From positions 26,290,563 to 26,354,562 of the forward strand of contig CP141145.1 of NCBI GenBank assembly GCA_035235625.1: a DNA stretch of 64,000 nt, read 5' to 3'. Positions within the stretch are counted from its first letter, which is position 1, and each line of letters opens with the position of its first letter. The notes beneath the pieces were generated by a model. That model searched no databases. It was not told the origin of the DNA and was given only the letters and a program-made list of their open reading frames with translations. This DNA comes from Saururus chinensis (taxonomy: Eukaryota; Streptophyta; Magnoliopsida; Piperales; Saururaceae). Below are positions 10,848 through 63,366 of the stretch, piece by piece. The position numbers were made by a program, and so were the translations under genes.

Positions 10848-10853
10848 TATAAA
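10848..10853 (+). promoter_or_regulatory. TATA box of the first cysteine protease gene
   Basis: TATAAA lies about 70 bp before the start codon at 10923, leaving room for a short 5' leader. Any reading frame opening upstream of this box (for example from 10827) cannot be translated from this promoter, which supports the 10923 start. Confidence 0.65.
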
Positions 10854-10922
10854 CCCATGTTCATGTGTACTTCCAACCACAAATCATTCTTGTTCATCTT
10901 CCTGTGTCTTTCTCGGGAAGAA

Positions 10923-12434
<1,512 letters not shown>

Positions 12435-18631: not shown

Positions 18632-18636
18632 TATAA
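18632..18636 (+). promoter_or_regulatory. TATA box of the second cysteine protease gene
   Basis: TATAA is about 75 bp before the ATG at 18710, the same spacing as in the sister gene, and sits in a C-rich context. Confidence 0.6.
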
Positions 18637-18709
18637 GCCCCCATCCCTCCTCCCCCATCATCCCTATCTATCTCATCGATCAACTCTTCTAGATAAGAAG
18701 TCAGTCACA

Positions 18710-20209
<1,500 letters not shown>

Positions 20210-35289: not shown

Positions 35290-36582
35290 CCCTCCGCCGG
35301 CAAAAAAATATTAACAACAATATAATAATAATAACAAAACAAAAACCCACTACCCACAAGCACTCTTAAACCCCAGAAACCACCACAGAACCTCTCTTTC
35401 TCGCCTGCCCCGTTCCAGCCCGGAGCCCCGGACCTTCTCGTTCTAATCGCCGCAGCGGGGAGGCTAACCGTCGCCTCGACCCGTGAGCGGAAAAGGAAGC
35501 AGGGAGGCCACCGAGCCGGCCTAAACAGGAGCTTCAACTCAATCGAACCCTCCGAATCCCCAAACACGACGACGACCACCACCAGAGCCACCGCCGGGTC
35601 AGCCTCCAAGTCTGCTCGTCCTTCTCCGACCTCCTCCCAGTGCAGCGACGCCAGCCCTCGCACGCTTCGAGAAAACGAGAAGAGGGGTCAAAATTCGGTT
35701 TCCGAAAATAGCCCCGGCGGGGGGCGGAATTTGCCGCCCCATCCACGAATGATTTTCCGAAAATGCCCTTATCGGGCGGGCGTAGAGACTCGCGGCGACC
35801 GCCGGAGGGGGGTCATGATCAGCAGAATCGGGGGCGAATCGGGTGCAATTTATGGCGGGGGGCGTCTGAGAAAGACCTCCCGAAAGAAAGAAGGTTTCCT
35901 TTCAAGGGGCAAACGGGGTTGGAGATTTGCTGGAAAATCTTAGGAAGTGAAAGCGTTTGCTTGAATGCGATGCTTTTTGCTGTGCTTGGGGAGGTAGCTC
36001 TAGCATGCATTTCAGTACGATGGTAACACGATTCAGGCAACTTAGCCAAGCTGTAGGGTTTTGGCAGCTGAGAACTAGTGCCTGCCTGTCCCCTCCTCTC
36101 TCTACCAGGTGTTTTTTTTTTGGATGAAGTCTCTCCCTCCATGCTTACTCTGAGCGGGATAGGAATACATATGAAACGTTTGTACTTTTGAATTGTATTG
36201 TTAGTTATATTAGCCTATTTTAGTGTAAGTGATACATTATTAATTTTTAAAAATAAATATTATACATATATATTTCTTACGCTCGACTCATTATTAGAAC
36301 ATAACATAAAAAATATTTCCTTATGTGGATATTTACTATTTTTTATATATATCTAAACATCTAAAAGGTGAATATTTATCAACTATATATTGGTACGGTG
36401 GGCTAGCCAAAATTAAGGGTGATAAATTTATGATCTAAACAAAAATAAGATGTAAAGTAATAGTCTTATATATTTGAATCATGTTTTGCTTACGGAAATG
36501 CCTTAATAATAGGTAGTTATAGATCAAAATACATGCACAAAACATACACAAAGTCAGATATGTTTATTTTACTTTTGTTATA
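35290..36582. other. 5' region of the TERMINAL EAR1-like gene
   Basis: A GC-rich leader/promoter zone up to about 35900, then AT-rich DNA. Frames within it (for example 35286-35663 minus) have no family resemblance and are taken as 5' UTR or promoter DNA. No TATA box could be chosen with confidence. Confidence 0.4.
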
Positions 36583-41239: not shown

Positions 41240-42650
41240 GGTAAACATATCTGTCGGATTGTTGTTATGTGAATTTTTTCAAGGAACAACTTCTTCTCCT
41301 CCACCAACTCTACGATAAAGAGGTATTTGATATTAATATGCTTCATCCTAGCATAGAATGCACTATTTCAGGTCAATGCAATTACACTATTATTATCACA
41401 ATATAAAGTACATTTCTCTTGTGTCATCCCAAGTTCATTCATGAAGACTTTCAAACATAATAGTTATTTGTTGGCTTCTATTATCACAACATATTATGCT
41501 TCTGAGAATGAAGTCGTCATAAGCTTTTGTAATTGTGACTGCCAAGCCACTGCAACACTACCAAGGGTAAAAATAAACCTCGTAGTGCCCCACCTTACTG
41601 TTTATATTGCCTCCATGGTAAGAATCCCCAAAGCCAACTAGCCTAATGTTAGAATGTCTACCAAAGCATAAAGTCATACCTGAAGAACCTCTTAGGTATA
41701 TGAAGATCCGCTTCACTGCTTTCTAGTGAGTCCAGCTTGGATCAGCCATAAACCTCGCCATTGGCTAATTGCATAAGAGATGTCTGGCTTAGTACAAGTA
41801 TCAACATACATTAGGAACCCAATTGTTGAGGCATACGAAATGTTGTGCATGTGAGCTTTCTCCTTATGAATCTTAGGAGATTGCTCCTAAGAGTGACTAA
41901 AATTAGATTCTAGGGGTGTACCCACTGGCTTAGTATTCAACATATTGAATTTCCTCAAAACCTTTTCAACATAGTTTGTCGAAGACAACCTTAGTACTTT
42001 CTTCTTCTAGTTTCTAGAAATCCTCAAGTCAAGAACATGCTTTGACAGACCTAGATCCTTCATGAAAAATTTATGAGACAATTATTTCTTCAAATTATTA
42101 ATATCATTCAAATTAGTGTTTGTAATCAACATATCGTAAACATAAATAACAATATAATTATGATGATGCTAACTTCTTGGAGCTTGATTTAGACCATATA
42201 AGTTCTTCGATAACTTATATACTAAGTTCTCTTTGCCCTTTACAACATAACTTGGGGCTTGTGCATGTAGATTTCTTCCTCTAAGTCACCACGTAGAAAA
42301 GATGTTTTCACATCTAGCTACTCTAAATGAAGATCTTCTACTGCTACAAGAGATAACACTATTCTAATGGTAGCAATCCTGGCAACTGAAGCAAATATTT
42401 ATGTGTAATCAACTTTGTACCTTTGTTTAAAGCCCTTGACTACTAGTCTAGCCTTAAACTTCTTGCTGCCACCTGATTCCTGTTTCAACCTATAGACCCA
42501 ATTCTTATGTAACGCCTTATTATCCTCATGTGATACAACTAATTCTCATGTCTGATTAGACATCATGTGAAAAGTGAGGAATAACCTACCCATATAACGT
42601 CTAGTTTCAAAGGGCTCATTGATACGAGTCTATCGAACACATAATTCTGA
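41240..42650 (-). mobile_element. Copia reverse transcriptase and RNase H relic
   Basis: Minus-strand translation shows Copia signatures such as KARLVVKGF, LDVKTSFL, IGSLMYVDTCTKPDISYAIS and the LYCDNNSVIAL of RNase H, in the correct order towards the LTR. The region is recognisable but broken. Confidence 0.75.
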
Positions 42651-42688
42651 CTTTAGGATAAGAAGTTATCGCATTTTGATGTTGGAAT

Positions 42689-44279
42689 TATATTTGAGTG
42701 AAATAATAATAAAATAATGAAGAAAAGACCGAATAGATGACGTCAATGGCGCGAGCCGAGCCAAGCCAAGCCATGCTGTTGAAGGAAAACACGGTGCGAG
42801 AGCCGCACCACACCGGGGAAGTGGGGACGTGCGATCACAAGCGTCCACGTGATGCGGGGCTCGAGCTATCATGTGGTCACACATCGCGTGTGCATCACGC
42901 GTGCACCATCCATGCAGGTGATCCAATGGGTGTATGTTCTGAGTCTATTTTTGTCCGTTCAAAGGGTGTTCTTAGCTAATTCGAGGGTATTCTACATAAT
43001 GGAAGCTTTAAAAGTGGGAAATGACCCAGGGTAAGAAGGGACTTTGCCCGTCACCCTCAAGCACCAAGGAGAGAGAAGTGGCCCAGAGCAAAAGGGGGCT
43101 TTGTCCTTTGTTGTTAGGCCATAATGAGGGAAGTGTCTCTGGGTAGGGGAATTTTTGTCCGCAGCCTTCAGGCACAAAAAATATAATGTGTCTCGGATTA
43201 AGTGGAGTTTATGTCCATCGCTTATGGGTGCGTAGATTGAAAAATGTCTCTGGGTAGGGGAAATTTTGTCTGCAACCTACGAGCATGAAGAATGTAAAGT
43301 ATCCCAGGTTAGGGGGAAGGTCTGTCTGTTGCCTATGGGCGCATAGAGAGAGAAATGTCTCCAGTTGAGGGAAATCCTATCAGCCGCCTACAACACAATA
43401 TGTGTTAAGTGTCCCGGGTTAAGGGGAGGTTATATTTGTTACCTTCAGGTTATAAAGAGATAAATGCCTTGGGTTAAAGGGAGATGATGTTCGCCACCTT
43501 CAGATGCAATGAGAAAGATGTTCGAAGTAAGAGGAGGTTTTGCTACCGTCTTTCGATCGGAAAGGGAGGATGAAAGAGGAAATGAGCAACTCCAAATGTC
43601 GTGACTTCCAGAACTATAGGGGAGTAAGCATTTCTTACCTTTCGATTTTATTTAATTTATATGCTTGAGTATTTTAATTAGTAATATTATTACATTAATT
43701 AAGATAGATGATTATATGAATGCATGTGTTACTTAAGATATATGCTATACTCTGATCCGATGTGTTTTGATAAGCTTTGATATAATTTGATAAGCTCTAA
43801 AATACTCTGTTTAATTTGATTTGAGGTATGCTTCACTAATTTATTGGCTTTCATTTAACTTTGATGATTGATTAGATTCTCATGTGATTTTGGATGCTTT
43901 ATTCGGATACAAGAATATATGTATTTTATTGTATATAATTTTGTGATGCTTGATGCATGTAATAGCTCATTAGGCAAAACTATTTTCGGATCCAATCGTA
44001 TTGAAATAATATCGTACATGTTATCCAATATGTATGGAGTTAAACAATGGCATAACAACATTGGCCCAATCTAAATTAATTATAAAACTAGGTTTGTTCT
44101 GACCTACGCTCAACGGAGCGCTAAAGCTCCATAGTGCAAAGATGAATGTTATGACTTCACACACAGAGTCTACCACTCCTAGTTGGTTGATATGTTTTAA
44201 TTTTTTTGAAAATAATTAATGAACTCATATTTTATTTTTTCAACCCCCGGTCTAGGTCGGTTCTCGAGTCGGGGTGTTA
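42689..44279 (+). mobile_element. LTR-type insertion inside the Copia, with a minisatellite
   Basis: Copia-coding similarity stops at both edges. TGGAA stands at 42684-42688 and again just after GGGGTGTTAC near 44280, a possible target duplication. The right end (GGGGTGTTAC) is of the same style as the other long LTRs here. The segment around 43975-44060 (GGCAAAACTATTTTCGGATC) is related to 61975-62040 of the 45197-62503 LTR, so this is a cousin family, probably a shortened solo LTR. No coding sequence. Confidence 0.5.
43010..43535. repeat. Degenerate minisatellite, about 60-bp unit, inside the LTR insertion
   Basis: About eight or nine units carry AAATGTCTCTGGGTAGGGGA, a (T)TTTGTCC/CTG stretch and CCT(A/T)(C/T)GGGC. 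Units vary in length and sequence, so the array is mature. Confidence 0.6.
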
Positions 44280-45196
44280 CTGGAAGCCCGCCATTAAAGA
44301 CATAGGATGATGACCTATTGATCATATACGCTACAACATCAATAGCATAGGAACATGGATGCAGACCACAATGGAGTCTCATGTTGTGCGCCCTCTCCAA
44401 AAGAATCAAGTTCATTCTCTCAACAACACCATTCTTCCAAGGCTGTCCAGGTGTGGTTAGCAACCTGCGAATTCTAAGCTTGTCATAAAATGATTGGAAT
44501 CCTTTGTCATAGTATTCACTGCCATTGTCTGATTTGAGGCACTTCAATTTTTGTCTTGCCTCATTCTCAATAAGCAATTTGCATTTGACAAATACAAAAA
44601 ATACATTAGATTTCTATCTATATAAATAAACCCACAACTTACGAGAAGCATCATCAATAAAATGTAGCAAAATAACATGCACCTCCAAGGAAGGGGACAT
44701 GTGTTGCCCCCCAAACATCCATGTAAACAAGAGCAAGATGCTCAGTCTGCCTATCAATGGTTGATTTAGAGAAAGTAATATTTTTCTATTTTCCCATGAT
44801 AGAGTCCTCACTAAAATTCAGATAAACTCTTTTCTTGACATATGACCTGGCCGTCTATGCCACACTTTGCATCAACATATCCTAGCGCAACTGGGATAGA
44901 ACTTTTAACACAACTAGTAAGTATGTAAAGATTACCGACTTTCTTCACCTTAGCAATCACCATTGAGCCTTGAGCTGTTTTCCAGTAAGCATTTAGAAAT
45001 TAAGTGGTGATTCCACACGTGGCCAATTGGCCAACAAAGATAATGTTCTTTGTTAAACGGGTCACATGTCTAACATCCTTTAGTAAAAACATTATGTCAT
45101 TTCCTACTTCAATCTAATATCACACTTACCAATAATTTCACAAGTCATGTCATGGTCTAAATAATTTTTTTTTCAAATCACCTGACACATAGTTAT
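44280..45196 (-). mobile_element. Copia integrase relic
   Basis: Minus-strand readings show the integrase core: CLKSDNGSEYYDKGFQSF, then TTPGQPWKNGVVERMN, and LHFIDDASRKLWVY upstream. The GTTAT at 45192-45196 is the target duplication of the large LTR insertion that begins at 45197. Confidence 0.75.
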
Positions 45197-47810
45197 TGTA
45201 ACGTCCGGGAATTTTCTAAATTGCCGAAGTCGTACACATGGAAATTAGGGTGCTAGACCCCTTGAACTTTTCATTGGAATAAATTAATCAATGCTTGGAT
45301 TTGGTGGCTGATATTGTAAGGACCCTCATCTTTAAACCGGTTTTTGATTTTCTTTAATTATTGGTTATCGTGAGATCTACGTGTTTTCTGATCTTATTCG
45401 GTGATTTCGTAAATAAATAGAGTTTATGATGGTTTTAACCAAAATTAACTTCAATATTAGTGGTTTTAAGTAATTTTAGACCAAATGTGAATTTTTGAGA
45501 TTTTTTGGAATTTTTACTATTTTTCCAAAAATTAGAGTTTTGGCGGGACCCATGTGGGCCCCACAGTCGAAAATTTTAATTTTGGGTTAAATGAACCTAG
45601 ACATATACTTAAGGTCACACAAAAAATTTTAAAATTTTATTAGGCTTAATCAGTGCTTAAATTTGTAAAATAACTACTTTTAGCCTACTTTTTCTATTTA
45701 CACCCCAAAACTTACCCATGCGTACCCCAACCCTTACTATAAAAGGGCAAACCTGAGCCATTTTTATTTTTGGGAATAGGCTAAGGAAGGAGGGCTGGAC
45801 TAATCCCCACTTAGGCCCGAATTAGAAGCCGATTAAGGTAAGCTTACTCTAATTAAGCATTAATCCATGGCTTTTTTCTTAATTTTTTCCAAATCTACCA
45901 TTTTCCCCTTGATTCAATTCGTTTTTGACCATCAAAAGCTACTGATTTGTGTTTTACTACAAACCCTAACATTCAAAATTCAATTTTTACTACCAACAAG
46001 CCCTAGATATAAGATTTAATTAGGGATTTCTTGGGTAAATCGATTTTTATTAGAGTTTAATTCAAACTCATTGTGTTTTCAAGGATTTCAAGAAGGGTGA
46101 CTCTTCAATCTGAGCTTAATCAAGTGCTGAGGTAATGGGTCTTCGAAATCTCTGTTTATCCATGGTAAAACTCTACATTTTTGGCTTATTTCGAATGGAG
46201 TTTGCTTGATTTAGTGTGTTAATGGTAAGATTAGAAAATGGAATTATTTAATCCCGATTTCTTAGGGTTTTGCATTCTTATGGTGTGGTTTGATGTTCTG
46301 GAAGTCAAGAAGGACTTTTGATGATGATTAGGGTGTTAGATGTGGATTTGAAGTGTTATCTATGGTGTTTCGGTTTGGATTTGCGAAAGGAAGAAGATGA
46401 CTGTTATGCCGTGTTGGCGATTTATCGGCCCTGCAGGGCGTTCGATTGGCAACACTGTCGGAATGACACTTTTCCAGTTCAGCCGATCGAACGATCTGCT
46501 GGGCGTTCGAACGACCGAACTATAAATTTCAAATTTTCACGTTTAACCGATCGAACGGCCAGAAGGGCGATCGATCGGCTACATAGTAAATTGCATGTTG
46601 TGTATATGATGTCTATTTTGATGATTCCACTTTAGCTTGCCAATTTTATATGAAGGTGGAGTGTTTTAAGCTATGTTAGGCTACTGGAAATGCATGCTAT
46701 TAAGTTTATGGAGTTGAGATATATACTTAGAGATGGTGGAATGACTTATGTTTTGTGGCATGATGTTGGAATCGTCATCTTGAAATTATGAATGGTTGGT
46801 TTCTCATGGTTAAGCATATTTTCAGTAGAACTATAATCTATTATTGGACTAATTTGTTATGATGGATTATGGTTAGTTGTGTGTGGATGTTGGTGAATGC
46901 CATGACTCAATGATGAAATGAGTGATGTTATATGTGTTTAGCCTTTGTGGTTGAGTTTTGAATTGAGATATGACTTCAACGATTCTTCTCCTATGATTTC
47001 CGCTGGAATTCATGTTTAGATGGAAATTCACATGTGTAGTGTAGTAAGTTTAATTCCAAGCATGTTGGCATGCATTATGTGAAATGCTTCTACTAGATAC
47101 ATACACACACATGTGGGGTTAAATGGCGATGTTGAAGCTTGATATTGTGATTATGAATGATGCATTAGGGGCTGTTGAGAGCACTTATCATGGATTAGGA
47201 TTCATGTATGCTTTGCCCACGTATGTACCATACTGCATGCATCATGAAAATGGATTTCCAATCGAGGCTTCATTGTGATTAATCGAATTTGACCAATTGG
47301 ATGCAATGTGATGGAATTGTGTGCCGGATTGATCGGTCGTGGATTAATCGTAAATTGATTGGTCCGAAAGGACATATTTTGATTTGAGTTCCTGTGTGGA
47401 ACGAGTGCACTCCCCGGGTTGAGTCTTGTTAAATGGAATGACATGTGGGGACGAGTTGTGTACTTGTCTTGCGGATTGTGAGAATGTTATTATGTGTGTC
47501 ATCTGGATCCTGAGAATCCAGTGTGGTATGCCGTGTGCACCCCGCTACCACGTGTTCTAGGGTTCTCTGTGTGAGAACTCGGGCTCTTCTCTCCGCAAGA
47601 GATGTCCCTGGGCGAACACCCCTGCTCTAGATTCTCTGTGTGAGAATGGGACATCCTTGGCCAGGATCGTCCAGGGCGAGCAGTATTAGGGATTGACAAC
47701 CCCGATCTTTCTTGAATTCTTGTGTAGAATTTTGGACCATGACATGCCTTCGTGGCCTTGTCTATGCTCCCGTCTGTGTGACGTTAATGTGTGATTACTC
47801 CTTGATGGAG

Positions 47811-48036
47811 GTTGATGTTGATGTTATGCATGTGGGAATATGTATGTTAGAGATACATCCATGCAGGTTGATGTTGATGTTATGCATGTTGGAATATGTA
47901 TGTTAGAGATATATCCATGCAGGTTGATGTTGATGTTATGCATGTGGAATATGTATGTTAGAGATACATCCATGCAGGTTGATGTTGATGTTATGCATGT
48001 GGGAATATGTATGTTAGAGATACATCCATGCAGGTT
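47811..48036. repeat. 55-bp minisatellite, 4 units (family B copy 1)
   Basis: Four units built on GTTGATGTTGATGTTATGCA, TATGTATGTTAGAGATACAT and CCATGCAG. The sister LTR has nine units at the homologous place. Confidence 0.9.
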
Positions 48037-48308
48037 GAATTATGCACTATGATGTTGTGTTAGGTGACATGCATATGCGATTAGAAAATGATGCACCATA
48101 TAAACCTTTGATCTGAATGATCTTATTACTATGCTATCGTGTTTTTCGACGTTGATAGTGATATTAAAACTATTGCTGAGTATTAAAACTCACCCCTCTT
48201 TTGTGTTTTGATTTGGGGCTGCGTGGTGCAACACGCAGACGGACAGGATCGCCTCTTCGAGGAAAGGTCGGAGGTGGCTTGAACATGATCATGGAGATCG
48301 TTGTGTGA

Positions 48309-49295
48309 TATCTCATCTATTAACATTAAAACTATTGTATGAACATCTCATCTAAATCACAGAAATTAGAATCGATGCAAATATCAAAACCATATTAATC
48401 TATCATCTACAAGACAATAAATCAACATAGACTTGAATAAACATGAAAAGCTCTTCCATTAAAAAGGAAATCCATATCATACAATTGTCATCATTCACAA
48501 CTGAGATCTAAATTAAAAAGAAAAGAAACTAAAACTTATCTATAGCTTCATCAACTCCTAAGTAAAAGAAAAGTCTAGCCTTCCATGGTAGAAGAAAGCA
48601 CTTGAATCTCCATTAGAAGCTTTGAGTTCTCTTCCATCTTCTTCTACCTTTTTCTCTTCATGAAATCTACTGGAATCCCCAAATTTTAAGCCAAATATGT
48701 CTTTTTATAGGCATAAGATCCGTAGGAAGAAGTCCAATATGAAAAGGATTAAAATTTAGGTCAAACTAGTAAACTGCACGTTATGCCGATCGATCGCCCT
48801 GCATGCCAGATTGATCGCTTGAACTGTATTTTTGTCTGAATTCACGTTATCCTGATCGATCGCCCTGCATGCCTGATCGATCGGCTACAGTGTTTCTATT
48901 TTCCTGGACAGTTCATATTCTATTCATTAAGCTTTCCTTCGTGTCCATATTAATTTCCAACTTGTTTATAACTCCGAAAAGTTATCCAAATCACTTTAAA
49001 GCATGTGAAAACTATTTTTAATCATTTCAAACATCATCCAAGTACTTCGATAAGCGCACTTTACCTACAAAATATAAAATACCATATTTTAGACATGTAG
49101 AATATAATTAAAATTTCAACTTGATTTAAATACATGTCTAAACAACTAATAACTACAAAATTATTAATAATTAAACTAAAATACTAATATCTAATTTAAT
49201 CTAAATAAACCATAACTAACTCTAAATTAACCTAATCTATACTAGCAAATAAGGTAAAAAGGCGTATAAAATAGATATAGATTTCATACTTATCA
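48309..49295 (-). mobile_element. Truncated inverted copy of family C LTR inside family B copy 1
   Basis: Read on the minus strand from 49295 it starts TGATAAGTATGAAAT and follows 55745-56735 closely, then stops. The insertion junction in the host LTR is not a simple clean insertion. The copy is partial. Confidence 0.8.
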
Positions 49296-49319
49296 GTCGG
49301 GCATCACCGGGGCGTGACA

Positions 49320-51002
49320 GATATATATATGGATGGAAAGTAGACAGAAAGAACTTCGAAACGCCACCAAGAACATGTGAATCGATGTTCGGATGAGGGA
49401 GATACGACCGTCTGAAGTTGAACATATCGTACAGGACCCGTTTACCCGAATTGAACGTGCGAATTGTCCGTTTAAGACACTATGCGGGCCCGATCAATTA
49501 CTGTTCCAAAATTGGGTTTTTGATGTCTAATTTCTCATGGGATTAGGAGCCCTAATCCCATGCTTATAAAAGGCCTTCTTAGGGCACAATTTGGGGGGGA
49601 TTGGGCAGCTTTTTGGACGGTGAAGGAAAGTGAATTTTCCGGTGAGACTCCAGTGAGGCGTTGGCGGCAGTGGATCGATAACAATTCGACCTTAGAGGTA
49701 AGATTTCGAATTGAGACTGATGAAAATGTCTTTAATTAATTTTAATAAAAAATTATAGTAATTTCTGCAAATACTGTTCATTAAATATTTAATCGCTGGA
49801 ATCATTGTAGAAAGGGGGCCGCTGGCCCTTGCCATGGTGGCCGTGGCTCTGGCCATGGCAGCCCTGACTCCGGCGGCCTTGGCAGCGGCAGTGAAACTGC
49901 CGCTATAGGCCATCGGGTCGTCGTGCAAAAAATAAAAAATAAAAAATGAGAACAAACCCGCCACCGGACAAAGGTGGGCAGCCGCTGGCCGGAAGAGGGA
50001 TCAGGTTCCTGGAATCGCTGAGCTAAGGCGGTCCCAGTTGAGCCCAGCCTATTGTCGGCCATGGTGCCCTGCCACCGTAGTAGCCCCGGCCGCACGAGCA
50101 GTAAGAGAAAGAAAGGGAAGAAATGGCCCCTTTTTGTGTCAGCCGGCCACCAGACAGAGGCGGGGCTGGGCTGGTCGGAGTCGCCGCCTGGCGGTGATTC
50201 ATTTCCACCCAGACCTCGCTGTAGAGCGGCAGCCTGGGGCGGTGCTGGTGCTGGTGGAGGCCAGTCGGCCTCTGGCTGGCTGTGAGGAAGACCACCCAGC
50301 AGGTCGTCGGGCTCTGTTTCGGGCCGGGCCAGATGGGATGAACCAACCCGTTCGGCTCGAGTTTAAAAAAAACAAATATACATTCCCTGAACCAGGTCCG
50401 GTTCAGGGGGTTAATTGTGTCAAACAAATCCTAGAAAATTACTATTGGCCCTGGAGAGGTTTGGGATTATTATGACTGAGTTTTAGATTGGGGAACAATC
50501 CTAGAGATTGTAAAATGAGCTTTTTACCCTTGGTAGTTAAATCATCGTGTGAGAACCATTTACCCGACTTCGGGGCCCTGGTCCAGGGGCCTAGGAGTTG
50601 ATTAAAAAATCAGAAAAATTCTCAGTGAGAGTCCAATTGGTTATCAAATTATAGACCAAATCTCTTAGTGAAGAAAAATCCCAGTGAGTGGTTAATTGAC
50701 CATTTTGCCTTTAGGGTTTATAGTAAACTGTTAGCCAAAACTTGGGTCGGTTCAAGGGGTTCGTCACATGCCAGGAAAATTACACAGAGTCCATGAACTC
50801 AAGTAGTACCCTTGACACTAATTTTGGACCCATTGGATGTCATTAAGGCCTTAAACCAAATGATAGAAATACCCTTTGAGTGGACCCACCCACATTCGTG
50901 TGAATGGAAGCGTGAGTCAGTCTGAGAGTGGAGCCTTGTGAGAGGTCAATGACTTAAATCAATAGAGGGGAAGTAAAATGACTAGAATGACCCAAGGGAG
51001 GG
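49320..51002 (+). mobile_element. Middle segment of family A LTR
   Basis: Family A DNA between the two family B insertions. It contains the TATA box (49565-49572), a leader-like GGGGGGGATTGGGCAGC, and a GC-rich patch (49810-50340). Frames in the GC-rich patch carry no family signature. Confidence 0.6.
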
Positions 51003-54000
51003 TGTAAGGACCCTCATCTTTAAACCGGTTTTGATTTTTATTTAATTATGGGTTATCGTGAGATTTACGTGTTTTCTGATCTTATTCGGTGATTTTGTAA
51101 ATAAATAGAGTTTGTGATGGTTTTAACCAAAATTAACTTCAATATTAGTGGTTTTAAGTGATTTTAAACCAAATGTGAATTTTTGAGATTTTTCGGAATT
51201 TTCACTATTTTCCCAAAAATTAGGGTTTTGGCGGGACCCCTGTGGGCCCCACGGTCGAAAATTTTATTTTTGTGTCAAATGACCCTAGACATATACTTAA
51301 GGTCACACAAAAATTTTCAGAATTTTATTAGGCTTAATTCGTGCTTAAATTTGCAAAATAACCACTTTTAGCCTACTTTTCATATGTACACCCCAAAACT
51401 TACCTATGCCTACCCCAACCCTTACTATAAAAGGGCAAACCAGAGCCATTTCCATTTTTGGGAATAGGCTAAGGAAGGAGGTCTGGCCTAATCCCCACTT
51501 AGGCCCGAATTAGAAGCCGATTAAGGTAAACTTGCTCTAATTAAGCACTAATCCATGGCTTTTCTCTTAATTTCTTCCAAATCTACCATTTTCCCCTTGA
51601 TTCAATTCGTTTTTGACCATCAAAAGCTACTGATTTGTGTTTTACTACAAACCCTAACTTTCAAAATTCGATTTTTACTACCAACAAGCTCCTAGATCTA
51701 AGATTTAATTAAGGATTTCTTAAGTAAATCGATTTCTATTGGTGTTTGATTCAAACTCATTGTGTTTTCAAGGATTTCAAGAAGGGTGACTCTTCAATCT
51801 GAGCTTAATCAAGTGCTGAGGTAATGGGTCTTCGAAATCTCTGTTTATCCATGGTAAAACTCTTCATTTTTGGCTTATTTCGAAATGGTTTGCTTGATTT
51901 AGTGTGTTAATGGTAAGATTAGAAAATGGAATTATTTAATCCCGATTTCTTAGGGTTTTGCATTATTATGGTTTGGTTTGATATTCTGGAAGTCAAGGAG
52001 GACTTTTGATGATGATTAGGGTGCTAGATGTGGATTTGAAGTGTTATCTATGGTGTTTCGGTTTGATTTTGCGAAAGGAAGAAGATGACTGTTCTGCCGT
52101 GTTGGCGATCGATCGGCCTTGCAGGGCGATCGATCGGCTGAACTGAAATTTTCAAAATTTTGCGTGTAACCGATCGAACGGCCTGAAGGGCGATCGATCG
52201 GCTATACAGGAAATTTGCATGTTGTGTGTATGATGCCTATTTTGATGATTCCACTTTGGCTTGCCAATTTTATATGAATGTGGAGTGTTTTGAGCTATGT
52301 TAGGCTACTGGAAATGCATGCTATTGAGTTTATGGAGTTTAGATATATGCTTAGTGATGGTGGAATGACTTATGTTTTGTGGCATGATGTTGGAATCGGT
52401 ATTTTGAAATTATGAATAGTTGTTTCCCTTTGGTTAAGCATATTTCAAGAGGGACTACAATCATTGTTGGACAGATTTGTCATGATAAATTGTGATTAAT
52501 GGTGTGTGAATGTTGGTGAATGCCATGACTCAATGATGAAATGAGTGATGTTAGAGGTGTTTAGCCTTTGTGGTTGAGTTTTGAATTTAACTATGATTTC
52601 AACGATTCTTCTACTATGATTTCCGCTGGAATTCATGTTTAGGTAGAAATTCACATGTGTGGTGTGGTAGTGAGTTGATTTTCAAGCATGTTAATATGCA
52701 TCATGTGAAAGGCTTCTACTAGTTACACACACACACATGTGGGGGTTAAATGATGATGTTGAAGCTTAATATCGTGATTATGAATGATGCATTAGGGGCT
52801 GGTGAGAGCACTTATCATGATTAGGGTTCATGTATGCTTTGCCCACGCATGTACCATGTTGCACGCATCATGAAAATGGATTTCCAATTGAGGCTTCATC
52901 GTGATTAATCGAATTTGACCGATTGGATGCAATGTGATGGAATTGCGTGCCGGGTTTATCGATCGTGGATTAATCGCAAGTTGATTGGTCCGAAAGGACA
53001 TATTTTGATTTGGAAGTTCCTGTGTGGAACGATTTGAAGTTCTGTGTGGAACGATTTGGAGTTCTGTGTGGAACGAGTGCACTCCCCGGGTTGAGTCTTG
53101 TTTAATGGAATGATGTGGGGACGAGTTGTGTACTTGTCTTGCGGATACGTGAGAATATTTTTATGTGTGTCATCCGGACCACGAGAATCCAGTGTGGTAT
53201 GCCGTGTGCACCCCGCTACCACGTGTTCTAGGGTTCTCTGTGTGAGAACTCGGGCTCTTCCCTCCGCAGAGATGTCCCTGGCGAACACCCCTGCTCTAGA
53301 TTCTCTGTGTGAGAATGGGACATCCTTGGCCAGGATCGTCTGTGGCGAGCGGTATTAGGGATTGACAACCCCGATCTTTCTTGAATTCTTGTGTAGAATT
53401 TTGTACCATGACACGCCTTCGTGGCCTTGTCTATGCTCCCGTACGTGTGACGTCAATGTGTGATTACTCCTTGATGGAGGTTGATTGTGATAACATTATG
53501 CATGTGGGAATATGTATGTTAGAGATACATCCATGCATGTTGATGTTGATGTTATGCATGTGGAATATGTATGTTAGAGATACATCCATGCATGTTGATG
53601 TTGATGTTATGCATGTGGAATATGTATGTTAGAGATACATCCATGCATGTTGATTTTGATGTTATGCATGTGGAATATGTATGTTAGAGATATATCCATG
53701 CATGTTGATGTTGATGTTATGCATGTGGAATATGTATGTTAGAGATACATCCATGCATGTTGATGTTGATGTTATGCATGTGGAATATGTATGTTAGAGA
53801 TACATCCATGCATGTTGATTTTGATGTTATGCATGTGGAATATGTATGTTAGAGATACATCCATGCATGTTGATGTTGATGTTATGCATGTGGAATATGT
53901 ATGTTAGAGATACATCCATGCGGGATTGGTTATGATGTGAATGCATGTGGGAATATGTATGCTAGAGATACATCCATGCAGGTTGAATTATGCATTTTTA

Positions 54001-54618
54001 TGCAGTGTTAAGTGATATGAATGTGTGATCAGAAAGTGATGCACCATGTAAATCTTTGATCTGAAACGATCTCATTTCTAAGCTATCGTATTTTCTACGT
54101 TGACAGTGATATTAAAAACATTGCTGAGTGTTAAAACTCACCCCTCTTTTGTGTTTTGATTTGGGGCTGCGTGGTGCGACACGCAGACGGACATGATTGC
54201 CTTTTTGAGGAAAGGTCAGAGGTAGCTTGGGTGTGATGATGGAGATCGTTGCGTGACTTTCCTTCATTTTGTTTCATGTTTTATGTTAGAACCTATGTGT
54301 AGGGTTCTTTGTTGTGGATTTATGTCACATGTTACAGTTATGTTTGCTTATGACTTATTTTGAGCCGGTGTGGGCTTTACTTAACTAAGTTTGTGGGTTG
54401 AGATTGTTGTTTACTTTGTGTTAAGCAACACCTTTTCTTCCCCTTTTATTTACTCTTGCTCAAAGGATTGTGCGCACTCCGTGTTGCTGTTAATCGCCCG
54501 TGGTTAGGGATTAAGTCTTCCGCTAGAATCGTTTCTCAATTTCACTTCGTCGCCCCCGCGCGCTTGACCGGCCCTTGGACCGGGTTCGGCTCGGGTCGGG
54601 CATCACCGGGGCGTGACA
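51003..54618 (+). mobile_element. Solo LTR, family B copy 2
   Basis: 3616 bp, starting TGTAAGGACCCTCATC and ending GGGGCGTGACA, flanked by GAGGG (50998-51002 and 54619-54623). The TATA box is TATAAAAG at 51426-51433, about 0.42 kb in, leaving a very long R-U5 part. No coding sequence. Its different target duplication shows it inserted independently of copy 1. Confidence 0.9.
53507..53990. repeat. 55-bp minisatellite, 9 units (family B copy 2)
   Basis: Nine units of ATGCATGTGGAATATGTATG-type sequence ending CCATGCATGTTGATG. Internal units are nearly identical, the edge units more diverged, the pattern of expansion from the middle. Confidence 0.9.
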
Positions 54619-55744
54619 GAGGGTATCATACCTTAGGTAGTAAAATTACCCTAATGCCCTTAGGGGCAATATATTCTGTTTCTGTCGAAACAGATGACCT
54701 AGTGAATCAAGAGTTAAGGTACCCTATAAACAACTTCAAAAGGAAGGGGTGTGACCGGTAGGTTACACAAAGACCTTGACAGGTCACAGTGTCATGGGAA
54801 ACCAATGGAAAACCCTAATTCTCAGGGTTTAGGGCAGTTTATTGTACGTGTCCGTAGCACAGTGCAAAAATCCACTAGGGCTTTATGTATGTCACTCGTG
54901 GAATATGTTAATTTACATATCGAGCTTGAATTCTCTGAGCCCTAGTCTTGCAAATGAATGCAATGGGCCTCCGTTTATTATTTATACGTTTGCATGATTG
55001 CATAATTATTTATGCTGATGCATGCTTTTGATATTGATGCATTGATTTATATTAGTAACTTAAGATTAATGAAGATTAATCAAGAGACATGGGTTGCTGT
55101 TGGTTTGAGGGGAGAACACCTAATAAAGATAATGAGTAAAATACCCTCTTTAGGGTTGGGACCAGTTCATGGAGTGAACTAAGCCCTAACATAGATTTTG
55201 ACCTTGGTTAATGAACCGAGGGTGATTTTGGGATGTTCTCTGAGTCATAGCTCAGTGGATGAGCTATTTAGTGGGCCGATTCACAAGGTGAAGAGGACCC
55301 ACATAGTTGAGTGCTTACTTGACTGGATGAAAATAATCTGGTCTAAGTTTCAGATGTTTGAGGGAGTCAATGGTCATAAGGACCTGAGGCTTCTATAGAT
55401 ATATTAGTAATGTCTTATAAGACATTTTCTCCCAGCGTTGGGAAGGTGGAGATTGCAATATGCATCTTCATCGCCACGATAGTTTGGGTATTGACTAGAG
55501 GGTCTTTACCATGGGTCTCCCGCAGGTCTTCCCAGGACTATTTAGTACGTATAAAAAGCGGAGTTACATGAGCATCATGGAAGGCTTTTGTTTCTTGCCA
55601 ATCTATGTCCATGAGCACAGTTGGGATCCTCTTCTCCAAATTCGTGGCAGGCTATTGAGAGCCCTGGGGATTTGGGTCAAGCTGCTGTTAAGCAGTCCAC
55701 TCCAAGGTTGGAGTACTTTGTTTGAGGATTTCTCGAGGGGCGAG
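54619..55744 (+). mobile_element. Segment of family A LTR
   Basis: Family A DNA between family B copy 2 and the family C insertion. It holds short frames without recognisable domains. Confidence 0.55.
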
Positions 55745-58700
55745 TGATAAGTATGAAATTTATATCTATTTTATATGCCCTTTTACCTTATTTGCTAGTA
55801 TAGATTAGGTTAATTTAGAGTTAATTATGGTTTATTTAGATTAAGATAGATATTAGTATTATAGTTTAATTATTAATGATTTTGTAGTTATTAGTTGTTT
55901 AGACATGTATTTAAATCAAGATGAAATTTTAGTTACTTTCTACATGTCTAAAGTATGATATTTTATATTTTGTAGGAAAAGTGCGGTTATCGAGGTACTT
56001 GGACGATGTTTAAAATAGTTCAAAATAGTCTTGACATGCTTTAAAATGATTTGAACAACTTTTCAGAGTTATAAACATGTTGGAAATGAATATGGATATG
56101 AAGAAAAGCTTAATGAACAGAATATGAACTGTCCAGAAAAATTATCCAGATTGCAGAAATATTATAGCCGTTCGAACGGGTTCACTTACCGTTTGATCGG
56201 GATAACATGAATTCAGACAAAAATACAGTTCAAGCGTTCAAACGGGCAAGCAGGGCGTTCGAACGGCATAACATGTTCCTTGTTTGACCCAAATTCCAAT
56301 CCTTTTCATATTGGACTTCTTTCTATGGATCTTATGCCTATAAAAAGACATATTTGGCTTAAAATTGGAGGATTCCAGTAGATTTTCTAAGGAGAAAAAG
56401 GAAGAAGAAGATGGAAGAGAACTCAAAGCTTTTAATGGAGATTCAAGTGCTTTCTTCTACAATGGAAGGCTAGACTTTTCTTTTACTTAGGAGTTGATGA
56501 AGCTATAGATAAGTTTCAATTTCTTTTCTTTTTAATTTAGATCTCAGTTGTGAATGATGACAATTGTATGATAAAGATTTCCTTTTTAATGAAAGAGCTT
56601 TTAATGTTTATTCAAGTCTATGTTGATTTATTGTCTTGTAGATGATAGATTGATGTAGTTTTGATATTTGCATCAATTCTAATTTCTGTGATTTAGATGA
56701 GATGGTCATACAATAGTTTTAATGTTCAGATAATTATTGACTTTGATGAGTTATACTAAGATTAGACGGGTCATGCCTATAGCTAGTTTAGTGTAGATGA
56801 TCCGTGCTATTGTCGAAGATAGTTCATGCCATAGAATTTAATTAATGATTCTTTCTAAAGTAATTCTAGCTTATAGCTGAGAATACTTGTTCATATTTAT
56901 ACTAGATTTAGATTAAAAGTTAAGAAATTGTTATGGTTCTATAGTGGATTCGATTTCCTAAGTAAACTCCATCAAATTAATCTCTTGCTTTTTAACTAGT
57001 TGATTCCTTTCTTTTGTTCAATTTAAGTTTAAGTTCTTTCTAGTTTTTAATCAGCAAATTCCTCTTTAGATTTTGTAATAATTCATCCGTCCCTGAGGTT
57101 CGACAACCCTTAAATACTTATCCTAGTACAATTGTAAGGTCCCTGATTTTTCTACGATTTTTTGGGATTTTTCTGTCATTTTTCTGGTCATTTTCGGCAG
57201 AAAAATGTGACGTTTTAGCGTATGTGTATTTGTGTATTCCCTTCATATTTATACCCGTAGAGTTGGGTGTGGGGCTTAGTCGAGGGCCACAGGCCTCGCT
57301 GCGCGCTTACGGCACGAAGTTTGGAGCTATGGCGCGTAACCAGTGAGTTAACGCGTATTGGGGATATAGATGTAAAAATTAAAAAGATTTAAGTATATAT
57401 ATGAAATCCATTTCATCGGTTTCACAGAACCGACATTCCAGAAGTTTTTTTTGACGTCCAGTGAGTTTTTGAGAAAACCCAAGGGCATATCCGGTCACTC
57501 CATTCTCCCTCCTCCGACATCGGATTCCATTGATTCTTGTCAGGTTCCGCTTTGCCTCATCGCCACGAGTCCGTAGGTACCGGCTATGCCCACCGCCACG
57601 GCCTCTTCGCTCCTCCACGAGGTACTGAACCTTTTTTCGGGTTTTCACTCCTTCAATCCCGTTTTTGCACTGTGGGTGTACGATTTTGACATCGTTTGCA
57701 GCCGCTCTCAACTAGACTTATGTTTAGTTGGCCGCTAGGAACCCATAGATACTGGCTGGAGCCGCTGCCATTTTTTTTTTGGTCCATGGTGAGCTACCGA
57801 TCTTTTGGTCAGGTTTTTGTTACTATTTACATCTCATTGTCCGTGGGATGTTTTGGACACTGGTGTGTTTCCGGTCGTCGTCCGGCCACCAGATGGACTC
57901 TGTCCAGCCTACCTCGACTTAATGTCGGTAGGGGGTTGCCGTTTCCGACCCCGCCTTGCCCCTATTGCCTTGCTCCGCCCGATTAGACGCTTTGGGTGCG
58001 TCTTGGGCTGTGGTCATCGGCGAGCCGTATGCTATTTGGCCATTATGGACTCTGCCCCGGCTCGGCGACAGTGAGGGTCAGCCCCACTTGGCCTAATTAT
58101 ATTATCGCTCAGAATGGGCTGCTTGTCATTTGCCCTATACCATGCAAGATGCACAGGCGCCCGCACCATGGGTATTGGTTGTGGGTGGTGATCGGCGATG
58201 TCGCTGCTTTGATTGGCCACCGTTAGGGTCTTAGCCCTGTTGGCTTTTGTAGGCCTTGAGTCACCTCATTTCAGCCCTTTCCCCCGCCCTTTGGGCCGCG
58301 TGCGCATGTAGCCACGCGTGTACTTCTGGGTGTAGGCGCCGCATTCGTGCAGCCTAACCATCAGTTGGCTTTGCCACCGAGTGGAGTTGACCACTAGAGC
58401 CGTCCTCCACCTCTCCTTTGATTCTCGAGCGTTGCCCCACTCTCTCCGCCTGTATGTGGGCATTTGTTGACCGGAATCGTTGCCGTTGGGTGTTGTCCAC
58501 GGCCGATTTCGACGTCTTTGTGGCCGGCTGAGCACATTTTAGCAACCGGCCGATCTTCAGTGTGTACACCATCGACCTATGGTTGCACCGCCACTTATGT
58601 TGGCATGATATTTCTCCCGACTGTCCTAGTGTGCCGCCGTGGATCGCGGGTTTTACCGCATTGAGTTCTGACACTCTGTTTGGCCGTGATAGTTCCGGCG

Positions 58701-58996
58701 CTTCCTAAAATCCTCGGGACAGCAGCTCTCTCAGCTAGGCAACGGTTTTGACTGCCAACTCCGCCGCCGACACCGTCATGTGCTCGCCATCGAACGTCAT
58801 GATTACGAGGTAGGGGAGCTTTGAACTCGTAAATTCATGAAGCATGCTTTGAATGAGTAGCAGCATGCTAGGATTGTATGATTCCATGCTTCGATGTTAA
58901 GTAACGATCCGATTGCATGAGGTGCGTGTAAGCATGATTGTATGGCATGATTGATATGCATGAGATGTATGCACGTTTTATGGATGTGGATTATGT

Positions 58997-59215
58997 ATGC
59001 GCTAGCGATGGCTAGCAAATATGTCAGTATGCTATGTATGGGTTATGCATGTGCTAGTGATGGCTAGCGTGCATGTTTGAAGTATGTATGAATGTGTGTG
59101 TGCACGTGCTAGAGATGACTAGCGTGTACGTTTGATGTATGCATATGCTAGTGACAGCTAGCGTGCATGTTTGACGTGTGTATGCATGTGCTAGTGAGGG
59201 CTAGCGTGCATGTTT
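58997..59215. repeat. GCTAG minisatellite in family D
   Basis: About five units of TATGCATGTGCTAGTGATGG followed by CTAGCGTGCATGTTTG, each holding the inverted pair CTAG...CTAGC. Confidence 0.75.
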
Positions 59216-59959
59216 GTAAGTTATGTATGTATGACCGTATGTGTATGTTATACATATGTGTGAGACATACGTGTGTATGATGGCAAATTGCTTATGATTT
59301 GGATGTGTGTAAGTGTATGTGGGCAGAGGTATGGGCGATGGACAGTAAGAGGTGACAGAGACTTTGTCTGAATTTGGATACAGTTGTGTAAGCGTATGAC
59401 AAAGGATAAGAGTATGATGGGCAGGGATTAGAATGGATCAGTTTGGGTTGGATGGTATGTTGAGCGTTTGTTAGACAGTAAGAGTGTTCATAATTGTACA
59501 AGCATAACGTACAAATTATGAAGTGAAAAGTAAGTATAACAAGTGAGATATAAGTAAGAGGGCGACCACTGGGTTGGCTCTGAGGAGCATTATTTGAGGA
59601 TGTCAGTGTAAGCTGATTTGGCCATAAGATGGATGGCGAAGTGCGTAAGATTGTAAGGGTTGGTTGTACGATGAGTTTGGTCCATGATGTGGACGGGTAA
59701 GTGAAGTCTGCTGCCCTGACGAACTTGGGTTTCGGATCAGGCTCAGCTTTAGTTTGACCAGTCGAGGACTGTGAGTTTGTGTGGCATAATTGTACCGCAT
59801 AATGTACTTAATTCAAACTTGAATTATAAGCACAGCTAATGATAGCATTGTGAGTTTGAGACTTGAGGGTTCGACGGATTAAGTTCCGTGTTTGAGCTGG
59901 CCGCTAATGAGTCGGCCGAGCATTTCTCATGTCTTGCCATGGTGTTTATCCTGTAGGAT

Positions 59960-60215
59960 GTTGTCTGTGTGCTGTATAGGGCACCAGACGTCTGATGCTT
60001 TGCTGAGAGCGATGTCGTTTCTGATTTTGTCTGCGTGCTGTATAAGCCCAGACGTTTGATGCTTTGTTGAGAGCGATGTACATTTCTGACTTTGTCTGCG
60101 TGCTGTATGAAGCCAGACGTCTGATGCTCTGCTGAGAGCGACGTATGTTTCTGATTTGGTCTGTGTGCTGTGTAAGCCCAGACGTTTGATGCTCTGTTGA
60201 GAGCGTTGTATGATT
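59960..60215. repeat. Four-unit repeat of about 65 bp in family D
   Basis: Each unit has GTCTG(C/T)GTGCTGTATAAG, a CAGACGT(C/T)TGATGCT core and TGAGAGCG. The core CAGACGTCTG is a perfect palindrome in two of the units. Confidence 0.8.
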
Positions 60216-60400
60216 CTGCCCAAGAGTGGCACTGTATGTTTCCGCCCAAGAGTGGCACTGTATGTTTTCTGCCCAAGAGTGGCAATGGCACTATAAGACC
60301 CATTATGGTGGGCAATTCTCTGGCACTATAAGACCCATTATGGTGGGCGATTTTATGGCACTATAAGACCCATTATGGTGGGCAACTGTATGACCCCTTA
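60216..60400. repeat. Two short adjoining arrays in family D
   Basis: Three units of GCCCAAGAGTGGCACTGTAT, then three units of GGCACTATAAGACCCATTAT ending GGTGGGC. Both share the GGCACT element, suggesting one grew out of the other. Confidence 0.8.
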
Positions 60401-60609
60401 TGTGTGGGTGTTTATGTTTGCGCGCTCAGGTAAGTAGTATCATGGATCTACTCTTACCTGTTTGATCCAGTGCCCCATGAGCATTGGTGTGCCTTACCTT
60501 CGGAAAAGTCCATAGCGTCTAGTCACTCCCTGGAGGTTAAGGTGTTGCCCCAGTGGCATTCTTTTCCTTTTCGACGCTGGAGCCTATTAGTTGTAATGAG
60601 CTTCAGTGG

Positions 60610-61085
60610 TCGTTGATATGTGTACGATTGTGTATGAGTACGACTGTATGAGTGTGAGTACGACTGTAAGAGTGTGTATGAGTACGACCGTAAGCGTATG
60701 AGTATGAGCAGGACTGTAAGAATGTGTATGAGCAGGACTGTAAGCGTATGAGTATGAGCACGACTATAAGAGTTTGAGCACGATTGTGAGAATGTGTTTC
60801 TGAGTAAGATAGTAAGTATGATTTTGTGTAGACTGTACGAGTACGATCGTACGAGTCTGATTGTACGAGTAAGGTCGTACAAGTTTGTGTAAGCTGTATG
60901 AGTAAGCGTACAGTGGTACGAGTAAGTTTGTATGACCCTGTATAAGGGTATTTGTGTAAGTTGTATGACCCTGGATAAGGGTGCTTGTGTAAGTTGATTG
61001 GATAGTATGATTTTGGCACGATGGTGCTTGTGGTATAATTTTGGCACGATGGTGCCTTCGGTATGTCTGTGGCATGATGGTGCCT
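60610..61085. repeat. GTATGAGTACGACTGTAAG arrays in family D
   Basis: Many short units (about 18-24 bp) of GTATGAGTACGACTGTAAG, then TGTATGACCCTGGATAAGGG repeats, then GGCACGATGGTGCC repeats up to 61085. The reverse of this block is recognisable at 5940-6230. Confidence 0.75.
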
Positions 61086-61776
61086 TTGTTATGATCGTAT
61101 GCGTATGTGCATGTTATGATTATGTTATGTTGACTGCTTCATGTTTGAGTTGCATGACGTATGTGATTATGAACTTATGGAGTTCACCGTTTGGGTTTTC
61201 CCCTACTGGGTATTTTCCTACTGAGTATGAAAATACTCATTACCCTACTTTTTAGCCCCGTTGTACGGGAGGTTTTGCAGGTTGTGCGGAGAGCTCCCGG
61301 AGATGGATGCTCATTTCAGCGGTGGATTGATTCCCGTTGACTCAGGTATCTGCTTGACTCATTGCGAGTTTGTTTGTGCCACGATCTCCTGTATTGAGTG
61401 AGAAGAGACTTTAAGATGTTTATTCTGGACTTTCATTTGGATGAGTCTATGGACTGTTATGGGACTTGTACTCAGGGATGCCTGGGAGTGATTTGTATTT
61501 AAAAGTCTATGATCATAGCAAATTTATTCGTACGGTTATTTTCGAGTAGCGCCTGAGGATATTTGCTTTGGCCGTAAGATGATTGACCGTATGTGGATGT
61601 TTACAGTTTTAAATTATAAACTGTTTTATCAAGTTTTGGTTTCGTCATTTTTCCTCCGATTTGCAGACGTTATATTGCAAAAATTTTCCGTGAATTTTAA
61701 GGAAAATGGGTGAAAAATCTCGGGCGTTACAACAATTACCTTGTACACTTACAAAGGGTTTAATTATAAATGATCA

Positions 61777-62503
61777 ACGAGTTATCTCCGAGTTGCATAT
61801 TTGATAGTTTTAATTATCAAACAAGGGATGTAAGATAATTTAATAACAATGTTTGATATTGTTTGTTAATTAGACAAGTGGAACGGTTAAAGGACTTACT
61901 AAAATGTAGGTTGAAAATATATAAGCATTGCATGTGTGATGCTATGCTTCTTAGGATAGAGTAGTTTCTAGGCAGAACTACGTTTGGATCTGATCTTGTT
62001 AGAAACATTGGAGATGTTGTCTAATGAGTATGTAGGCAACTAACATCGGGTGATGTTGGCTCGATCCAGAAAATATTAATAAAACCTTTTGTCCTTTGGA
62101 AGCTCTTCTCCTGTGGGCAGAGATGCTCCATTGTGGTTGTGGTTGTTGTTTAGTTCGTTTTGTTGCAGATTCTCCAGGTGACGAAAAGTGAGACCAAGGC
62201 AGGCATGCATAAGAGGTTTCTGCGGTTCTTTAACTCCAGTACGTAAGTGTACCTTAAGCGTGAGAGTCAACTTATTATTTATTTTCAGACGGACGATGGA
62301 CTTGTACTTAGATGGATGAGCTAGTCTTTATGAATTTTTAGATGTTAATAATATCGTATGATTTGATATTCGTATTTGTGAACCCCAGTTATCATGACCT
62401 GGATATTTAATCGAATAGTTTGTTTTGTATTTAAAGAAAAAAAAATTCTCGCTACTTACTATTCATGCTATTTAAAAATGCTTTTAAAATCTGGGCCGTG
62501 ACA
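61777..62503 (+). mobile_element. 3' segment of family A LTR
   Basis: After the family C insertion, family A continues to its end GGGCCGTGACA. The part around 61975-62045 is related to 43975-44060 in the 42689-44279 insertion. Confidence 0.6.
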
Positions 62504-63366
62504 GTTATCAAACAAAACACTTCTAGAAGTTGCATGAAAAGATGCACTACTATCAATTATATAAGAATTACATTTACTTTCACAATATAATATCATGTAT
62601 TCATCACCATCAGCAATGTTAACAACATTGATATTTTTACTATAGTTACCTCTATCATGTGCTGCATTCTTGCAATCACATTTAACATGACTAGTTTAGC
62701 CATAGTTCTAATACTTTCCAACATTATTCCTTCCCTTAGACTTGGAACATCCCTACCAGAACTTTCCTTTACCTCCAAACTATTTTTGTCCTTGATGGCC
62801 TCTCCAATCAATAGCAAAAGCTGACCGAGATGAGGGATTGGTGCCTTTGCGTTGGGTTTCCTCAGCCAATAACAAGCCACAAACATTATTCAACTTAAAT
62901 TTATCGACAGAATGGAAACTAATCACAACAACCTTAAAGGATTCCCAATTAGAGGGTAAAGATTTTAACAATGCAATTGACTAAATGTTCTCATCAAATT
63001 TAACTTTAACAACCTCTAACTTATTAATCAAGTCATGAAAGGAGTTCAAATGCATCGAAACACCATCATCATCAACCATCGTTAAATAAAAAAGTGAGTC
63101 ACAAGATGCACTTTGTTTGACTGAACTGCTCCTAAGGCCTTCTGATCAATCAACCAAGCGGCATCATCCATATCCTTTAGCTTCACACCTACAATCGAAA
63201 GATGGAACTCCTTCTGATAAAAATAGTAATCTATTCGCATGTGCCAAAACACGTAGTTCTTGCCTATGAGCTTTTTGATCCGAAACTTCTCATCTTCCGC
63301 CATCATCACATTCATCCAAACATAGAGTACATCCTTGATTTTAAGGAAAGCTCGAAAGATAAGCAT
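62504..63366 (-). mobile_element. Copia gag and protease-start relic
   Basis: Minus-strand readings show the gag pattern: LIGKNYVFWHMRIDYYFYQK, LIDQKALGAV, then LKSLPSNWESFK and LLAEETQRK. An SSASFHATS-type stretch near 62530 marks the start of protease. GTTAT at 62504-62508 is the target duplication of the family A LTR. Confidence 0.75.

Follow-up and report, generated by a model that had tools for sequence, protein, structure and literature searches.

A stretch of 64,000 nucleotides from the genome of Saururus chinensis (the window; contig CP141145.1, here G000:C6:26290563-26354562) almost certainly harbors a nest of solo long terminal repeats (LTRs) derived from LTR retrotransposons, lodged one within another inside a probable Ty1/Copia relic. 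The cluster involves four repeat families, here called A, B, C and D, which we treat as separate because they have no sequence in common at E <= 1e-3; their other copies were sought in the same genome (516 Mb in 11 contigs). The longest chains run from Copia through A and C to D, or from Copia through A and the first B copy (B1) to a truncated, inverted piece of C that we call C'. An earlier reading made from the letters of the window (the sequence-only reading) had described a four-deep nest of solo LTRs; the nest is instead three solo LTRs or LTR remnants deep, and the outermost Copia element is a relic rather than a solo LTR. The insertion order proposed in that reading (Copia, then A, then the two B copies and C in A, then D in C) is borne out by the target-site duplications (TSDs) and uninterrupted relatives described below, and nesting firmly shows that A arrived after Copia, B1, B2 and C after A, C' after B1, and D after C. 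Since B1, B2 and C are siblings within A, nesting leaves their mutual order unset, and it gives no time at which any element became solo. Elsewhere in the genome A lies in B (L028) and in A (L014, L020 and L024), and D lies in A (L015), in D (L032) and, as read by eye, in the start of B (the D61 row, L061/L062), so the sequence of insertions seen here belongs to this locus and does not extend to the families at large.

The single LTR-like unit of family A spans 45197-62503 on the plus strand, has the ends TGTAACGTCCGG...TGGGCCGTGACA and is flanked by a perfect TSD, GTTAT (45192-45196 and 62504-62508). Its own sequence, 3639 bp, is split into four pieces (45197-45314, 49325-51002, 54624-55744 and 61782-62503) by two solo LTRs of family B and one of family C, all on the plus strand. 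B1 occupies 45315-49319 with the TSD GATAT (45310-45314 and 49320-49324), and B2 occupies 51003-54618 with the TSD GAGGG (50998-51002 and 54619-54623). C occupies 55745-61776, has the ends TGATAAGTATGA...TATAAATGATCA and lies between the words GCGAG (55740-55744) and ACGAG (61777-61781), which match at four of five bases. The ~1.43 kb of C's own sequence is in two pieces (55745-57132 and 61737-61776) around a D solo LTR of 4599 bp (57133-61731, plus strand) with the TSD ACAAT (57128-57132 and 61732-61736). On re-reading of the coordinates, the termini and 5-bp duplications given in the sequence-only reading proved exact. Each of A, B1, B2 and D is thus a TG...CA unit between perfectly matching 5-bp flanks, and C is such a unit between flanks matching at 4/5 bases; if equal base frequencies are assumed, random 5-mers would yield four perfect matches plus one at 4/5 or better with a probability of ~1.4e-14. 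As an empirical control, the 15 A copies whose two ends lie where expected were compared: a copy's own flanks matched at 4/5 bases or more in 15/15 cases, against 2/210 swapped pairs.

The flanks of these insertions rejoin in relatives from the same genome, the point on which the sequence-only reading had staked its order. Among the 20 best of the 39 other A hits, the B2 site is uninterrupted in all 20, and its target word GAGGG is found in 18. The B1 site is uninterrupted within 6 bases in 14 of these copies, the exceptions being five in which the short left piece is unmatched and one with 57 extra bases; the target word GATAT stands in nine, another word in three, and that end is unaligned in eight. 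The C site, too, is uninterrupted in 20/20, with exactly five shared bases in 19, and carries GCGAG in 16, GTGAG in three and GTTAT in one (L027, with a shifted alignment). Because the uninterrupted A copies mostly have GCGAG and never ACGAG, the mismatched ACGAG is most simply read as a later point change on C's right side. The D site is uninterrupted in 11/12 C copies, each with exactly five shared bases (the exception is L080, where no match to the piece right of the D site was found), and the A site in all three Copia relatives, with four shared bases. Host sequence is therefore continuous in copies without the insert and shares one copy of the TSD, as expected of nested insertion. Repeat clusters are prone to misassembly and this nest is known from the assembly alone, but a misjoin would not create TSDs, whereas all five insertions have their own and are bordered by flanks that are continuous in other copies; it is thus scarcely credible that the nest is an assembly artefact.

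Family B is the LTR of a Ty3/gypsy element. A full-length copy (C4:15462346-15474088) has two B LTRs flanking 4.6 kb, the TSD GCTAA and, seven bases past the first LTR, a primer site that we take to be of the Met type. The internal region carries the gag and pol domains of Ty3/gypsy elements: Retrotrans_gag, RVP_2, RVT_1, RT_RNaseH and Integrase_H2C2 score above the Pfam cut-off, rve falls below it (28.8 bits against 32.6), and a C-terminal Chromo match is weak (E 0.026, 14.9 bits against a cut-off of 25.1). The B relative thus resembles the Tekay/Del chromoviruses in its gag, protease, reverse transcriptase (RT), RNase H, integrase, presumed Met-type primer site and weak C-terminal chromodomain match; likened by domains rather than by phylogeny, B differs from them in that its chromodomain is below the Pfam cut-off and its LTR is 3.6 kb long. 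Because the chromodomain match is weak, we regard a chromovirus of the Tekay/Del kind as the likely, though short of proven, identity of family B.

B1 and B2 lie on the same strand, 1.7 kb apart, and are 88-92% alike in their longest matches, as might be expected of the LTR pair of a single full-length B element whose internal region would be 49320-51002. Their TSDs, however, are perfect yet different, the intervening sequence is A sequence that is contiguous with the A flanks in other A copies, and the B internal region elsewhere is 4.6 kb long and coding. The two copies also differ in private substitutions, i.e., sites at which the window copy departs from a base common to at least 90% of the sampled copies, of which B2 has 0/1144 and B1 17/1144 (p = 1.4e-5). 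A single element was rejected on its differing TSDs and the A sequence that separates the two copies, and we give it practically no chance; B1 and B2 are two separate insertions into A. The B LTR also contains a minisatellite with a unit of ~55 bp, of which there are about four in B1 (47805-48030) and nine in B2 (53474-53986); split matches suggest that its length varies in other B copies as well.

Family C is supported as an LTR by copies that are paired on the same strand ~11 kb apart, on contig C1 and on contig C5. A 5-kb part between the C1 pair contains RVT_1, Integrase_H2C2 and rve, i.e., the RT and integrase of Ty3/gypsy elements. The C LTR is directly followed by primer-site-like sequence, and what comes after the LTR of this pair contains TGGCGCCGTTGCCGGGGA, which we presume to be typical of Athila and its relatives. 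In the C relatives RT precedes integrase and open frames extend beyond integrase, two of which, scanned in one C relative, gave no Pfam match. The spacing of its LTR pairs, TGGCGCCGTTGCCGGGGA, the RT-integrase order and the frames beyond integrase liken C to the Athila/Tat superclade (OTA), from which it differs in that its two scanned post-integrase frames lack a Pfam match. Family C is therefore best viewed as a Ty3/gypsy family that is putatively Athila-like, of either the Athila or the Tat kind.

The inverted C piece that the sequence-only reading had noted inside B1 is indeed there. The B match stops at 48308 and is taken up again at 49296; in between, C positions 982 to 1 run along the minus strand (48322-49295), and a stretch of 13 bp at the deletion junction (48309-48321) falls outside both the B and the C alignments. 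Missing at this place are the last ~450 bp of C, 338 bp of B and the left TSD, and the intact C 5' terminus is flush with B at 49295/49296, where the right TSD copy would be GTCGG. Because this terminus abuts B exactly, C' is a C insertion in its own right, separate from the first, whose far end was lost, presumably by deletion. C' might instead have been copied or rearranged from C at 55745 by gene conversion, inversion or foldback, as the two belong to the same family and lie in opposite orientation 6.4-7.5 kb apart. Yet C' stops against B exactly at the C 5' terminus, as an integrase insertion would, and the similarity between C and C' is 89.6% (986 columns), whereas their nearest relatives among 13 sampled copies are at distances of 6.0% (C) and 6.3% (C'). 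Since each is closer to another sampled copy than to its counterpart, C' was not recently copied from C; a rearranged copy was rejected on this similarity and is in our view very unlikely, which leaves C' as a second C insertion.

For family D the evidence comes from the sequence that follows its end. At 42 places, and at none in the reversed control, TTGGTATC, a primer-site match, stands 1-4 bases past the last 17 bases of D, which supports reading D as an LTR; a D-end plus primer-site pattern with a spacing of 3-12 bases gave 0 hits, and it was the shorter spacing that succeeded. Decayed D-like fragments, 71-86% alike to D, are also found on the minus strand at window positions 5746-7468. 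Among the D copies elsewhere, L032 (G000:C8:27547785-27556254) is a solo LTR with the TSD GACAG inside its host D copy, and L061/L062 (G000:C9, ~6846100-6851420) lie at the very tip of B, the right flank being, by eye, the start of a B LTR, GTAAGGACCCTCATC.

Single LTRs are the majority of the sampled copies in all four families, which were sampled by hit rank with pairs omitted. The B sample comprises 20 of the 39 other top places; it excludes the 13 lowest ranks, a copy with an internal repeat, three that sit inside other B copies, and the pair on C4. Fourteen of the 20 are single with perfect TSDs, and one more is perfect by eye after a two-base shift of its start; of the rest, one matches at 4/5 bases, one has the 4-base duplication GCAA (by eye), and three are followed by the same internal sequence as in the full-length B copy. 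Perfect TSDs were found in 11 of the 12 copies of the C sample (the top 14 of 39 others minus the C1 pair; the exception is L080), and all 10 copies of the D sample (of 39 others) are single, nine with perfect TSDs and one at 4/5. Both ends were located in 17 of the 20 sampled A copies (the 5' end was not found in L010, L016 and L017), and all 17 have matching flanks, 14 of them perfect and three at 4/5. As the copies were chosen by rank and pairs were omitted, these counts are not unbiased ratios. Given that single LTRs prevail in all four samples, the locus is an ordinary one, and a group of five solo LTRs is what one would expect from families of this sort.

The LTR status claimed in the sequence-only reading is supported for B, C and D by the full-length element, the paired copies and the primer-site-bearing ends, respectively, while for A, of which no pair was found, we infer it. 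A could be a non-autonomous unit with LTR-like ends that moves singly, its single copies then being primary insertions; the 17 of 17 end-located copies with flanks matching at at least 4/5 bases agree with this, as do the compared 300-bp flanks of A copies, which have no mutual similarity. However, the ends, 5-bp TSDs and size of A are like those of the B and D LTRs, for which there are a full-length relative and primer-site-bearing ends, high single-LTR fractions are found likewise in B, C and D, and a paired element may rank below the best 39-40 of 3978 and 8967 candidates. We consider such a unit very improbable, and a still smaller chance attaches to A being a retroelement that spreads as a single 3.6-kb LTR-like unit with no partner LTR, which is conceivable because the 17 end-located copies are all single with matching duplications and no pair was seen. 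A is thus treated here as a solo LTR.

The locus almost certainly formed as follows. A Copia element inserted and decayed, an A-family element entered it, and two B-family elements and one C-family element entered A at different points. A D-family element entered C, and a second C element entered B1 backwards and later lost its far end, presumably by deletion. The internal genes were most likely lost by homologous recombination between the two LTRs of each element, which would leave as the remnant one LTR between intact 5-bp target duplications.

Several points weigh against this account. No A copy with a partner LTR or an internal region was found among the sampled copies, and a pattern of the A end plus a primer site at a spacing of 3-12 bases, too wide for the 1-base spacing that D later proved to have, gave two hits (L111 and L112), both of which turned out not to be A. 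The C pairs were recognized by strand and spacing; the evidence that D is an LTR leans on a 17-base end, and no paired D element was read. The Copia assignment leans on sub-cut-off scores for rve and Retrotran_gag_2 in a decayed relic. With regard to divergence, the private substitutions of C' exceed those of its host B1 (28/974 vs 17/1144, p = 0.034), and A seems younger than the inner B1, C, C' and D by both nearest-relative distance and terminal branch.

The sequence-only reading had also taken each solo LTR to be dated by its own target duplication and the cluster to be a relative clock of transposon activity, and neither claim is supported. From a TSD one obtains an order but no date, and in a solo LTR the pair normally used for dating has been lost. 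Divergence was tried as an independent clock on 21 A, 8 B, 13 C and 11 D copies, and the resulting figures are rough, because the sample sizes differ and the copies are all top hits. The private substitutions of A (23/1116), C (20/982) and D (10/486) are equal (p = 1.0 for each pair), and those of A and B1 compare at p = 0.34. The nearest sampled relative is at 4.2% for A, 6.1% for B1, 1.1% for B2 and 4.7% for D (422 sites), beside the values for C and C' given above. Terminal branches in the FastTree trees are 0.032 (A), 0.059 (B1), 0.008 (B2), 0.050 (C), 0.065 (C') and 0.054 (D), and the nearest distances by transversions only are 0.0090, 0.0219, 0.0035, 0.0194, 0.0236 and 0.0213 in the same order. 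Terminal branches, nearest distances, transversions and private substitutions all fail to recover the order of the nest: private substitutions are flat across A, C and D, C' stands above its host B1, and by distance A seems younger than B1, C, C' and D. These reversals do not refute the nesting, since each distance sets no more than an upper bound to the insertion age, one that shifts with the sampling and with how diverged the source copies were. Everything inside A is younger than A, and so the bound for A (~2.1% per lineage) holds for all of it. B2 alone is clearly young, and far younger than B1, which sits in A as well; the low count of B2 could also reflect gene conversion.

The probable Copia relic that hosts the nest is on the minus strand and has two parts. 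The left part (44283-45196, closed by GTTAT), with an integrase fragment at 44200-44613, aligns over ~44283-45196 to three Copia relatives at ~76%, and its integrase core match (rve, E 2.5e-4) is under the curated Pfam cut-off. The right part (62504-63322, opened by GTTAT) corresponds to the gag region, with two fragments of Retrotran_gag_2, a copia-type gag domain (E 5.5e-4 and 4.1e-4), likewise under the curated cut-off. The similarity of the relic to its relatives breaks off at ~44283, the right edge of the segment 42650-44283 reading ...TCGGGGTGTTAC, and Copia-like minus-strand peptides reappear by eye at 41.56-41.89 kb, with no Pfam match. Because the similarity stops and the peptides resume in this way, the interval between them (window positions 42650-44283) probably holds another insertion or a rearrangement; a look for repeats at 41.0-44.6 kb gave nothing clear. 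Farther off, the window holds a local duplication, a pair of related genes for papain-like cysteine proteases (I29 propeptide plus Peptidase_C1; 10770-12401 and 18599-20179), and a minus-strand gene with an RNA recognition motif (33392-35310), which we presume might be Mei2-like.

The nest is an ordinary kind of genome architecture; it yields a firm partial insertion order for four families and opens no long-standing question. Like solo LTRs with intact TSDs in general, those described here are single TG...CA units with no internal region and matching 5-bp flanks, and only their length sets any of them apart (3.6-4.6 kb in A, B and D). PMC7251063 cites earlier work in which the ratio of solo to complete elements correlates with LTR length, and the long LTRs found here fit that correlation. 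The clade features used in assigning B and C are given in PMC6317226, where 5-bp TSDs make up 93.4% and 4-bp TSDs 6.2% among the elements analysed. The closest comparison is with the nested plant LTR retrotransposons surveyed in PMC7251063 (4126 pairs of nested and original elements), in which, as here, younger elements lie inside older ones and order follows from nesting; that survey differs in dating full-length elements by their LTR pairs, whereas the elements described here are single LTRs with no pair left. In 1042 of the 4126 pairs (25%) the nested element is more LTR-divergent than its host (PMC7251063), so clock reversals are already known, and the excess of C' over B1 is of the same kind, though by another measure. 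With a clock that is flat or reversed across A, C, D and the B1/C' pair, the locus is a concrete case against turning nesting into dates.

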